This document shows, in pieces, positions 15,581 to 54,527 of a stretch of 64,000 bases of DNA (the stretch's first letter is position 1; every line of letters begins with the position of its first letter). A program made the position numbers and the translations under genes. Where the stretch lies: the NCBI RefSeq assembly GCF_014202075.1, contig NZ_JACHFZ010000001.1, positions 682,001 through 746,000 of the forward strand, in the 5' to 3' direction. This stretch comes from Brevundimonas basaltis (lineage in GTDB: Bacteria > Pseudomonadota > Alphaproteobacteria > Caulobacterales > Caulobacteraceae). The notes under the pieces were generated by a model that was not told the DNA's origin, ran no database searches, and saw only the letters and a list, made by a program, of their open reading frames with translations.

Positions 15581-15596
15581 CCGCTCCCGGCGCCGC

Positions 15597-16045
15597 CTAC
15601 GGGTCAAGGGTCCAGGTGTAATCGCCGGGTTTATCGGCGTGCATCGGCACGAAATTGGGGGTCTCGTAGCCGCTGGGGCAGGTGTCGCCGCCGTCCGACC
15701 AGAAGGTGTTGGGGGCCAGGGTACTGGACACAAAGCGTATGGTTGCCCGCCCAGGAGCGGTTCGAGCCGTCGGTGGCGTCGGCGTACATGTAGAAATTCG
15801 AATTGTCGGTGCTGACGAGATCAATGCAGGCGGCGTTGTAGACGTCGTACCAGCCGCGGTTGATGAAGCGCCCGGCGCCGACCTCGACATAGGAAATGGC
15901 GACCGTAGCGTTGCGGCCGCTGTTGTTGCAGACCTTGAGTTCAACGGTCGGCGTGTACGATGAATTCGCCGTCTGGGCTGCAACCCGAACCGGCGCGCCC
16001 AGCGTCAAGGCCAAGCGCGGCGGCCGCAATGACAAAGGATTTCAC
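15597..16045 (-). pseudogene. DUF1036 exported protein gene broken by two frameshifts
   Basis: Three reading frames must be joined to recover one protein. From a GTG at 16045, preceded by a good GAGGGGAG ribosome site, frame one gives VKSFVIAAAA, the start of a signal peptide. The peptide continues in another frame as LALTLGAPVRVAAQ, then ELKVCNNSGRNATVAISYVE and NRSWAGNHTLCVQYPGP. The end, NTFWSDGGDTCPSGYETPN to TWTLDP, is in a third frame. The second break coincides with a run of five G (15711-15715); each break is explained by one extra base. Either the gene is recently dead or the assembly has two errors. DUF1036 proteins are small, often membrane-anchored, and of unknown function. Confidence 0.75.
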
Positions 16046-16142
16046 GGTTCTCAGCTCCCCTCGCTCCCTGCGGTAGATTATCAGAGGCGGAGGTCGAATC
16101 CAGTGACGGTTGCCGACGGCCCGGCAGGCAGGGATTGATCCG

Positions 16143-17076: not shown

Positions 17077-17535
17077 TCAGTGCGGCGCGATTTCGTCCGG
17101 CGGGGTCGACAGCCAGGGGGCCAACCGGAAGCGGCGGGGCGGTTCGCCGAGGGTCCGATGCTGGATGAACTGGCGGGCGAAATCGACCACCGCGCGGATG
17201 GTCTGTTCGTCGAAGGGTTTGGACACTGCGCCGAGGGCGCCAGCAAACCCCTCGGGAATCTGCTCTGGATTGGCGGTCAGGAAGACCACCGCCGTCCCGT
17301 GCTCGGCTACCAGCCGCTGGGCGATCCGGGGGCCGGTCATGCCATCCAGAAGGTTCACGTCTATCAGCGCCAGATCGGGATTCTCGCGTCCGGCGATGGC
17401 GAAGGCGCTCAACTGGTCCATCGCGCATCCGACGATGTCACAGCCGGATTCGCCCAACACCAGCTCGAGCTCCATGGCGAGAAGCGCCTGGTCCTCTACG
17501 ATCATGACCCGAAGGTCGGGCGGATTGGACAACAC
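17077..17535 (-). CDS. Stand-alone response-regulator receiver
   Basis: A 152-residue receiver domain with a short tail and no output domain. E14 and D15 form the acidic pocket, D59 in LALIDVNL is the phospho-acceptor, T in FLTANPEQ and K in AVSKPFD complete the switch. The last 35 residues are basic and proline-rich without a known domain. It diverges from the kinase-like gene at 17666; the two are probably partners. Such single-domain receivers in Caulobacterales carry phosphate between proteins or act by protein binding. Confidence 0.92.
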   Translation of the reverse strand: MLSNPPDLRVMIVEDQALLAMELELVLGESGCDIVGCAMDQLSAFAIAGRENPDLALIDVNLLDGMTGPRIAQRLVAEHGTAVVFLTANPEQIPEGFAGALGAVSKPFDEQTIRAVVDFARQFIQHRTLGEPPRRFRLAPWLSTPPDEIAPH

Positions 17536-17577
17536 AACACCCCCGAACGGGACCAGAGGCCGTTTACCACTCCCTGT

Positions 17578-17591
17578 GTCCGCTAGCGGAC
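17578..17591. promoter_or_regulatory. Perfect 14-bp palindrome in a divergent promoter region
   Basis: GTCCGCTAGCGGAC is fully self-complementary. It lies in the 130-bp spacer between the receiver gene (start 17535, minus) and the kinase-like gene (start 17666, plus), 43 bp from the former. It is placed to control both promoters. The binding protein is unknown. Confidence 0.45.
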
Positions 17592-17665
17592 GATAAATGC
17601 CTGATTGGCTAATTGGTTCGGCGTGACGTAAGATTTCTTGGGCTTTTTCAGGGGCTGGGGGATCG

Positions 17666-18268
17666 ATGGCTACCGCTGCCGGAGAGGGCGTTGTCGAACT
17701 TCAGCGCCGGTTGCTGGGCGGCTACCAGTTGCTGCAGACCCTCGTGGGAATTCGGCTGCGGACCGTCACCGATCCGGAAAGCGTGCGGCACCTGACCTGG
17801 CTTAGCGACGTCACCGCCGCGGTGGAACTGATCAGCCGGCGGGTGACCGTCGACGGACCGCTGGACTTCGGCGGCTATCTGGAAGACGTGGCCGCCTTCT
17901 GGACCCGCGCCTGCGGGGGCCGACCGGTACGTCTGGACGTGCGCGGCCATACCGCCCTGCTGCCCGACAGCCATTTGTTGCCGTTGGCCATCATCACCCA
18001 CGAGCTGATCTCCAATGCTTGCCGCCACGCCTTTACGGACGGCCGCCGTGGCTCGATCGCGGTGGCCTTCTCGAGGGCGGTGGGCGGCGTCAGCCTGGTG
18101 GTGCGCGATTCGGGGATCGGGGCGGAGACGCTGGAGCCTGGTGAAGGTCTCGCTCTGGTGCGCGGGCTGGTCGAGCATCTGGGCGGGTCGATGAGCGTCG
18201 AGACCGCACCGGGACAGGGCGTGGGCGTCCGCATCCGAATTGCGCTCGAGCCCTCCCCGATACATTGA
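17666..18268 (+). CDS. Histidine-kinase-like ATPase lacking the phospho-acceptor His
   Basis: A 200-residue protein with a helical N-terminus and a C-terminal HATPase domain. The N-box is HELISNACRHAF (about 112-123) and the G-boxes are RDSGIGAET (about 147) and GEGLALVRGLVEHLGG. The helical part (ELQRRLLGGYQLLQTLVGI) aligns with the HisKA_2/HWE dimerisation helix, where active kinases have E-L-x-H-R-x-K-N; here the histidine position is Gln or Arg. It could be a phosphotransfer or ATP-binding scaffold, or a kinase acting in trans. It is divergent from the receiver at 17077. Confidence 0.75.
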   Translation: MATAAGEGVVELQRRLLGGYQLLQTLVGIRLRTVTDPESVRHLTWLSDVTAAVELISRRVTVDGPLDFGGYLEDVAAFWTRACGGRPVRLDVRGHTALLPDSHLLPLAIITHELISNACRHAFTDGRRGSIAVAFSRAVGGVSLVVRDSGIGAETLEPGEGLALVRGLVEHLGGSMSVETAPGQGVGVRIRIALEPSPIH

Positions 18269-18360
18269 ACATCGCGCAACCTTCAGTCTTTTGGTTCTTG
18301 TGCGAACCTGCCCGTCGAGCTAGGACTACCCCGGTTTTGCAGTTCTTTTGGAGAAGCAAC

Positions 18361-18588
18361 GTGAAGAAGACCATCGCAGCCGTGACGGCTGGTCTGCTGC
18401 TGGTGGCCGGTCAGGCTGCCGCAGCGAACAACAACAATGCTGCGGCTCGTGTGGGTGACCGCGTCGGCGCCGTAGCCGGTGAATCGAGCGAGTTCGCGGG
18501 CGTGCCGCTTCCCGCGGTCCTGCTCACCATCGCCGCCATCACCTTCGTGGTGGTCGGCGTGAGCGAGGACGACTCCGATAGCGACTAA
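18361..18588 (+). CDS. Small exported protein with C-terminal membrane helix
   Basis: A 75-residue protein. From GTG at 18361, behind a GGAGAAG ribosome site, it begins VKKTIAAVTAGLLLVAGQAAA, a clear signal peptide. The short Asn-rich segment ANNNNAAARVGDRVG follows, then a hydrophobic helix (LPAVLLTIAAITFVVVGV) and an acidic tail SEDDSDSD. Short proteins of this layout are common in Caulobacterales but I do not recognise a function. A strong terminator follows immediately. Confidence 0.65.
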   Translation: MKKTIAAVTAGLLLVAGQAAAANNNNAAARVGDRVGAVAGESSEFAGVPLPAVLLTIAAITFVVVGVSEDDSDSD

Positions 18589-52889: not shown

Positions 52890-54527
52890 ATGCCGACCAT
52901 TGAAAGTCTCACCGAGCGCGCCGAGGCGGTGTCGCCTCAGACGTTGGGAAGCGAGGTCTTCGCCCGCTTCGAGAGCGAACCCGACACCCTGGTGATCGCG
53001 GTCGTCGATGGCCAATTCCCGGTCGGCCTGATCGAGCGCAATGACTTCCTGCTGAAGATCGCCTCCCCCTTTGGCCACGCCCTGTACGCCGGTCGGCCAG
53101 TCATCCACGTCATGGACTCCGAGCCCCCCATGGTCGAGGCGGGCGTCGCCATCGGCACCGTCTGCGACGCCCTGATCAAGGGCGGTCCGGGCACCTTCAT
53201 GCGGGGGTTCATCGTCACCCGCGACGGGCGCTATCATGGCATCGGCACCGTCGCCTCGATGCTGCGGGCCGTCAATGAGGATCAACGGGGCCAGAACGCC
53301 GATCTGGCTGAACAGGTGCGGCAGCTAAGCGACACCCGGAACCAGGTCCTCGAGTCGGCCCGGTCCCGCAGCCAGTTCCTGACCATCATGAGCCACGAGT
53401 TGCGCACCCCGATGAACGGCGTGCTCGCCGTGGCCGAACTGCTGCGCCGGCAACCGCTGAACGCCCAGGCCCACGCTCATGTGACTACGATCGTCGAGTC
53501 CTCCGAGACCCTGCTGCGTACCCTGCAGGACGCACTTGACCTGTCGCGGGCGGAAGCCGGTGAACTGGAACTTCGCGCGGCGCCGACGCCGCTTCGGGCC
53601 ATGATGGACGATGTTCAGGCCCAGTGGGCCCCACGCGCCTCGCAGGACAACGTCTCCCTGATGATCAGCTACGAGGGCGACACAGAGTTGGCCGCGGTCA
53701 TCGACGGCGAGCGGCTGAAGCAGGTGTTGAACAACCTGATCGGCAACGCCCTGAAGTTCGCGCGCAACGGCGTCGTCGAAGCCAGCCTGCGAGCCAGGGC
53801 CGCCGGCGACCGGATCACGCTGGAGGCGCGCATCCGCGACGACGGGCCGGGGATCGACGCGGACCGGGTGGATAGGATCTTCGAGCCCTTCGTGCAGGGA
53901 TCGGGTCACGACGGCGCGGGCCTCGGGCTGTCGATCTGCCGCCAGATCGTCGACCGCATGGGCGGACGGATCTGGGCCCGGAACAACGGCGGACAGGGCG
54001 CGACTTTCGGCTTCGACCTTGAGGTCGACCGAACGAAGGCCGAGGCCGCCCCGGCCTCGAACGTCCAGTCCCTGTCGGAACTGGAGATGACCAGCAACCC
54101 GCATATCCTGATTGTCGACGACAACGCCACCAACCGCGTCGTCGCCCAGGCCCTGTGCGAAATGTTCGGCTGCACCTCCGAAACCGCCGAGGACGGGGTC
54201 GAGGCGCTGGAAGCGGTTCAGGAGCGCCAGTTCGATCTGGTGCTGATGGATATCAAGATGCCGCGCATGGACGGGGTGCAGGCGACCCGCGCGATTCGCG
54301 CTCTCGACGGGCCCGCGGGCGCCGTGCCGATCGTGGCCCTGACCGCCAACGCCGATCCCGACGACGCCAGGAAATACCTCGCCTGCGGCATGGCCGCCGT
54401 GGTCGAAAAGCCGATCAAGCCGGAACGCCTGCGCATGGCCATGAACGCGGCGCTTGAACAGGGCGCGACGACGGCGGCGGTTGAGGAAGCGCCTGCCAAA
54501 CGTCGTCGCTCACGCTCGGCCGCCTAG
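52890..54527 (+). CDS. Hybrid sensor histidine kinase with N-terminal CBS-like region
   Basis: A 545-residue cytoplasmic hybrid kinase. Residues 1-130 resemble a degenerate CBS-pair or ligand-binding domain (VIAVVDGQFPVGLIERNDFL). HisKA has the phospho-acceptor H169 in FLTIMSHELRTPMNG; HATPase has the N-box VLNNLIGNALKF and G-boxes DDGPGIDAD and GLGLSICRQ. A C-terminal receiver (HILIVDDNATNRVVAQAL, then LMDIKMPRMDGV) has its own phospho-Asp. The basic tail KRRRSRSAA is unusual. It is possibly linked to cell-cycle or stress signalling; there is no partner nearby. Confidence 0.9.
   Translation: MPTIESLTERAEAVSPQTLGSEVFARFESEPDTLVIAVVDGQFPVGLIERNDFLLKIASPFGHALYAGRPVIHVMDSEPPMVEAGVAIGTVCDALIKGGPGTFMRGFIVTRDGRYHGIGTVASMLRAVNEDQRGQNADLAEQVRQLSDTRNQVLESARSRSQFLTIMSHELRTPMNGVLAVAELLRRQPLNAQAHAHVTTIVESSETLLRTLQDALDLSRAEAGELELRAAPTPLRAMMDDVQAQWAPRASQDNVSLMISYEGDTELAAVIDGERLKQVLNNLIGNALKFARNGVVEASLRARAAGDRITLEARIRDDGPGIDADRVDRIFEPFVQGSGHDGAGLGLSICRQIVDRMGGRIWARNNGGQGATFGFDLEVDRTKAEAAPASNVQSLSELEMTSNPHILIVDDNATNRVVAQALCEMFGCTSETAEDGVEALEAVQERQFDLVLMDIKMPRMDGVQATRAIRALDGPAGAVPIVALTANADPDDARKYLACGMAAVVEKPIKPERLRMAMNAALEQGATTAAVEEAPAKRRRSRSAA

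Follow-up and report, generated by a model that had tools for sequence, protein, structure and literature searches.

A candidate sensorless pseudo-histidine kinase of the HisKA2 lineage paired with a single-domain receiver in Brevundimonas

Introduction

What does a histidine kinase-like protein do when its ATP site is intact and the histidine that should accept the phosphate is gone? The question is raised by two divergent genes of Brevundimonas basaltis, which lie in the 64,000-nucleotide stretch of DNA analysed here (the window; contig NZ_JACHFZ010000001.1, positions 682,001 to 746,000). A first-pass annotation of the window described a kinase-like protein with a complete ATPase domain and Gln or Arg at the phospho-acceptor position, encoded opposite a stand-alone receiver with a perfect 14-bp palindrome between the two genes, and suggested a pseudo-kinase, a phosphotransferase or a trans-acting kinase in a circuit not described. 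The descriptive part of that proposal was confirmed throughout: the coordinates of both genes were exact, D59 was the phosphorylation site of the receiver, the palindrome was present at its reported position, the window protein contained the N, G1 and G2 boxes, and the acceptor position was occupied by Arg14. The features of the locus are collected in Table 1.

Table 1. Coordinates of the features of the receiver and kinase-like gene pair in the window
Feature	Position	Strand	Residues	Remarks
Receiver gene	17077-17535	(-)	152 aa	GTG start
Receiver C-terminal tail APWLSTPPDEIAPH	17080..17121	(-)	139-152	APWLxTPPxxIAPH or close form
Intergenic gap, receiver / kinase-like ORF	130 bp			Divergent genes; holds GTCCGCTAGCGGAC at 17578-17591
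Conserved imperfect dyad TGTCSGnTAsCGGACA	17577..17592	(.)		Contains the perfect 14-bp palindrome 17578-17591
Promoter-like box GAACC-N15-CATT	17596..17619	(-)		Toward receiver; GAACC-N14..16-CGTT in 58/62 loci
Kinase-like ORF (putative pseudo-histidine kinase)	17666-18268	(+)	200 aa	ATG start
DHp-like helix pair		(+)	2-33 and 37-57	AlphaFold model
Degenerate H-box ELQRRLLGGY	17696..17725	(+)	11-20	Canonical HRxxN absent
Best-conserved stretch QLLQTLVGIRLRTVTDPESVRHLTWLSDVTAAVELISRRV	17726..17845	(+)	21-60	R30, L31, D36, R41, H42, W45, D48, L55, R59 invariant
HATPase (Bergerat) domain	Within 17666-18268	(+)	After helix pair	Pfam HATPase_c and AlphaFold model
N box HELISNACRHAF	17999..18034	(+)	112-123	Asn to Glu or Ala in six orthologs
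G1 box DSGIG	18107..18121	(+)	148-152	Lost in six orthologs
G2-like GEGLALV	18140..18160	(+)	159-165	AESMALV or similar in the clade without ATP site

Results

Distribution and setting of the gene pair

Orthologs of the kinase-like protein, collected at an E value of 1e-20 or better, were present in 46 of 131 Brevundimonas genomes, and the divergent receiver adjoined the kinase-like gene in every one of them. The receiver was found at 62 loci, one per genome, and thus also stood alone at 16, most of which were otherwise syntenic on the tRNA and ilvC side. A search of plasmids returned distant matches only, with less than 60% identity.

Other genes of the window were noted in passing. The ORF downstream of the kinase-like gene (18265-18588, + strand) encodes a small hydrophobic product, probably a membrane or exported protein, that had no family match. 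A search with the PhyR family located a second receiver domain (54063-54458, + strand) inside a 545-aa ORF (52890-54527). A secreted-protein gene at 15590-16060 (- strand), whose product we take to be DUF1036-like, is split over frames, with the signal peptide in one, the body in a second and the C-terminus in a third; it looks either twice frameshifted or affected by sequence errors.

Fold and ancestry of the kinase-like protein

Pfam recognised the ATPase half of the kinase-like protein (HATPase_c, 5e-10; HATPase_c_2, 2e-8), and the HisKA_2 and HWE DHp models gave no match at E values up to 1. The best NCBIfam model was PhyK, below the family cut-off, and a sensor domain was absent. The AlphaFold model (pLDDT 86.5, pTM 0.82) predicted a DHp-CA histidine-kinase fold, which matched best the HWE/HisKA2 kinase EL346 (4R39; Z 20.6 over 174 residues) and also the CA domains of many kinases and DivL (4Q20), these matches covering mostly the CA domain and so giving little information on the helix pair alone. 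Alignment of the ortholog profile with EL346 placed E-x-Q-H-R opposite E-L-Q-R-R, with Arg14 at the phospho-His position and Gln13 before it.

Conservation among the 46 orthologs was unevenly distributed: mean entropy was 1.61 bits for the highly variable residues 11-20, compared with 0.73 for residues 21-40 and 0.94 for residues 41-60, making residues 21-60 the most conserved region of the protein. Invariant positions beyond those of Table 1 were I29, V34, A52, Y71, F78 and W79. Position 14 was Arg in 26 orthologs, Pro in six, Gly in four, His in three and Lys in two, with Gln among the remainder, and residue 18, the Asn of HRxxN, was Gly in 36 of 46, Asn not being among its five commonest residues. 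Of the three His residues at position 14, only that of L034 both belongs to the main clade and has ExxHR around it; its codon, CAC, is one base from the CGC (Arg) of its neighbours, and we rejected it as a functional retention because it amounts to one changed base in a sequence surrounded on the tree by Arg-bearing ones. In L061 the aligned column also holds a His, but in a different and inserted context.

Relatives that retain the histidine indicated the direction of change. In a metagenome-derived genome, SZAS-4 (L126), the two genes form the same divergent arrangement and the kinase-like protein still has its His (E-L-R-H-R). Other genera of the Caulobacteraceae encode short stand-alone kinases (L143-L148) with both His and HRxxN, and a search of about 2.5 kb around them did not find this receiver. 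In a kinase tree rooted on these stand-alone proteins, L126 and L063, both paired and both with the His, branched near the base, and the next branch (support 97/98) led to 21 representatives without the His, L034 excepted. Pairwise dN/dS among correctly aligned close pairs, with L003/L005 left out because the comparison ran across an indel, was 0.07-0.29 and mostly about 0.1, including in the clade without ATP motifs, which indicates that the gene is functional and that its function needs no phospho-His. Judged from these sequences, the phospho-acceptor was lost once within the paired family and then stayed lost under purifying selection, and the derivation of the protein, as a putative pseudo-histidine kinase, from a small stand-alone HisKA2-type kinase is supported.

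The low dN/dS also opposes a pseudogene reading. In favour of decay without any remaining function, the receiver tree implied at least seven independent losses of the kinase-like gene in the genus, which point to an accessory role, and recognisable remnants of its 5' end (TAEVRIA...) left after deletion at two loci (L088 and L095) show that the loss there was recent. Nevertheless, the constraint on the surviving copies and the residues invariant across 46 species make decay highly improbable.

Fate of the ATP site

The N, G1 and G2 boxes were present in about 40 of the 46 orthologs. The remaining six (L064-L069), which fall at two separate points of the tree (L066 on a long, unsure branch), no longer have the N-box Asn, DxGxG or the G2 motif, and still are paired with the receiver. 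The first-pass suggestion of a pseudo-kinase is therefore strengthened by the single loss of the His under purifying selection and by the further loss of the ATP site in two parts of the tree.

An intact CA domain could serve a different purpose if the protein paired with a complete HWE/HisKA2 kinase and phosphorylated the His of its partner. The ATP motifs of most orthologs, the window protein included, and the confident CA domain of the fold model are what such a trans-acting kinase would show, and this part of the earlier proposal holds as a possibility for the window protein. It does not describe a general function of the family, since some members have no ATP motifs and keep their receiver, and what is conserved beside the gene encodes a receiver, not a kinase; we consider this reading unlikely. 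The suggestion of an ordinary phosphotransferase found no support. The degenerate-kinase phosphotransferases PhyT (formerly PhyP), ChpT and Spo0B (PMC5898713) likewise descend from the histidine kinase type and act together with receivers; in them, however, the His is retained and the ATPase has degenerated, the reverse of the window protein.

A phosphotransferase of another kind would arise if the old site had been replaced by His42, which belongs to the RRHLxW motif where the second helix begins. His42 is invariant in the 46 orthologs and in L126, and is Gln (RRQ) in the nearest His-bearing outgroup kinases (L143-L147), from which we infer that His42 arose with receiver pairing; moreover, a phosphotransferase would tolerate loss of the ATPase. 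Against relocation, His42 is predicted to lie near the end of the hairpin, at a distance from the usual site, L126 and L063 have both His42 and the old His, and a structural or docking role would explain its invariance equally well, so that phosphotransfer through His42 appears decidedly unlikely. A His is also the last residue (residue 200) of the protein, 38 of the 46 orthologs having it in the final alignment column, and the receiver too tends to end in His, at nearly all loci with the partner.

The receiver and its C-terminal tail

The receiver matched Response_reg in Pfam (1.7e-15) and, in NCBIfam, best matched PRK13435 models (down to 2e-31, below their own cut-offs). Residues E14, D15, D59, T87 and K106 were invariant in the 62 loci. 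Its structure model showed a receiver fold (pLDDT 88) with lower confidence in the tail, about 60-73. The FATGUY motif of MrrA and SdrG was absent after beta4, FLTANP occupying residues 85-90 instead.

The C-terminal tail followed the presence of the kinase-like gene. It was intact at all 45 readable loci with that gene (L054 was unreadable because of an N run) and degenerate or gone at 12 (lenient scoring) to 14 (strict scoring) of the 16 loci without it. Independent comparisons of tail loss with partner loss numbered three to five in agreement and none in opposition; the sign test had too little power for significance (median p 0.25 with lenient and 0.125 with strict scoring), and scoring of the tail began only after it had been noticed. 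Three distant receiver orthologs without the kinase-like gene (L081, L087 and L094) adjoin a CcrM-like DNA methyltransferase outside the tRNA/ilvC locus, and L087 retains the same promoter block.

The intergenic palindrome and promoter-like box

The palindrome block, GTC[CGA]G..[ATC][CGA]CG[GAC]AC, was found at 54 of 62 loci, mostly 38-40 bp from the GGTTC element of an AACG-N14..16-GGTTC box present at 58 of 62. The perfect 14-bp dyad occurs in some species only; elsewhere five to seven of eight half-site positions pair, and since at least five paired positions arise by chance in about 42% of shuffles, the evidence for function of the palindrome lies in its sequence conservation and not in its symmetry. 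Both block and box persist at receiver-only loci, indicating that they belong to the receiver. The palindrome thus does not form part of a two-gene circuit, and we rejected the idea that the two genes share it because it remains where the partner has been deleted. It was also rejected as a regulon site, there being no second copy with up to one mismatch in the 2.65-Mb genome.

Read toward the receiver, the box resembles an ECF promoter. Compared with the EcfG (sigma-T) consensus, GGAAC-N16/17-CGTT, the first G was found at none of the 58 loci, whereas the nepR upstream region of this genome has GGAAC-N16-CGTT, first G included. The window box has CATT where CGTT is usual. These patterns suggest that a conserved promoter-like box and an operator-like dyad serve the receiver by itself.

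Discussion

We propose, with moderate confidence, that the kinase-like protein is a pseudo-kinase of HisKA2 descent that works in the manner of DivL, docking the receiver and neither adding nor removing phosphate; its part is probably to bind the receiver, not to phosphorylate it. DivL of Caulobacter crescentus is a pseudo-histidine kinase that reads DivK~P and has no kinase or phosphatase activity (PMC4211667). The two proteins share the order, a single-domain receiver partner, a replaced phospho-His and, by prediction here, the DHp-CA fold. DivL differs in being large, with PAS domains and a Tyr at the site, whereas the window protein has 200 residues, no sensor, HisKA2 ancestry and an unconserved site residue (Arg in the window), and is not an ortholog of DivL.

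Several results argue for a docking function: the acceptor position is unconserved, in contrast to residues 21-60, where conservation is highest; the outgroup and basal members keep the His and a single well-supported branch loses it; dN/dS is low; orthologs that lost the ATP motifs remain paired, and the clade tested is still constrained; the kinase-like gene always accompanies the receiver in the genomes searched, while the receiver also occurs alone; the tail is degenerate in most loci without the partner and in none with it; and the predicted fold matches both EL346 and DivL. The clean ATP motifs of most orthologs, superfluous in a pure adaptor, the weak power of the tail comparison and the repeated loss of the gene count against it.

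In the mechanism that we envisage, the pseudo-kinase would dimerise through its helix pair, and the receiver, by means of its own C-terminal tail as well, would dock on the conserved half of the two helices, residues 21-60 being the putative receiver-docking and dimer half. The receiver, with its phosphorylation site intact, would probably be charged by the ordinary HWE/HisKA2 kinases of the cell, and the pseudo-kinase would either sequester one receiver state or turn receiver phosphorylation into contact with a third protein. A more elaborate scheme, which we put forward tentatively and regard as somewhat improbable, makes the sensorless pseudo-kinase the effector of the receiver, with input through the private tail, possibly with His42 as a relocated phospho-acceptor, and with loss of the His followed by loss of the ATPase.

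The alphaproteobacterial general stress response offers further comparisons. LovK-LovR and MrrA/PhyK-PhyR (PMC5964349) also combine HWE/HisKA2 kinases with single-domain receivers; their kinases, however, have sensor domains and the His, and the window receiver differs from theirs in FLTANP in place of FATGUY and in its private tail. LovK is a phosphatase of LovR (PMC5964349), so that the window protein might analogously bind the phosphorylated receiver and speed its dephosphorylation; the Asn of HRxxN has nevertheless been lost along with the His, position 18 being mostly Gly, and a phosphatase role seems very doubtful. EL346 (4R39, 4R3A), the closest solved fold, is a LOV-sensing kinase that has the His and autophosphorylates. 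The stand-alone kinases L143-L148 are the nearest His-bearing relatives outside the pair, of the same size and likewise sensorless, and differ in keeping His and HRxxN and in having mostly Gln at position 42.

The description of the circuit as new stands as regards this family, for which no published account was found in the literature searched, and holds only in part as regards the principle, since receiver-reading pseudo-kinases are known in the same order (DivL). DivL, PhyT and ChpT were known already; what is new here is a sensorless pseudo-kinase of HisKA2 lineage tied to one receiver, which would add such a case beside DivL. Single-domain receivers are common, often without a known output, and a small pseudo-kinase that accompanies a single receiver is a candidate for that role. 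Within the genus the stages follow in order, with the His kept, the His lost, the ATP site lost and the gene lost, so that natural variants offer a way to test how a kinase becomes a binding protein.
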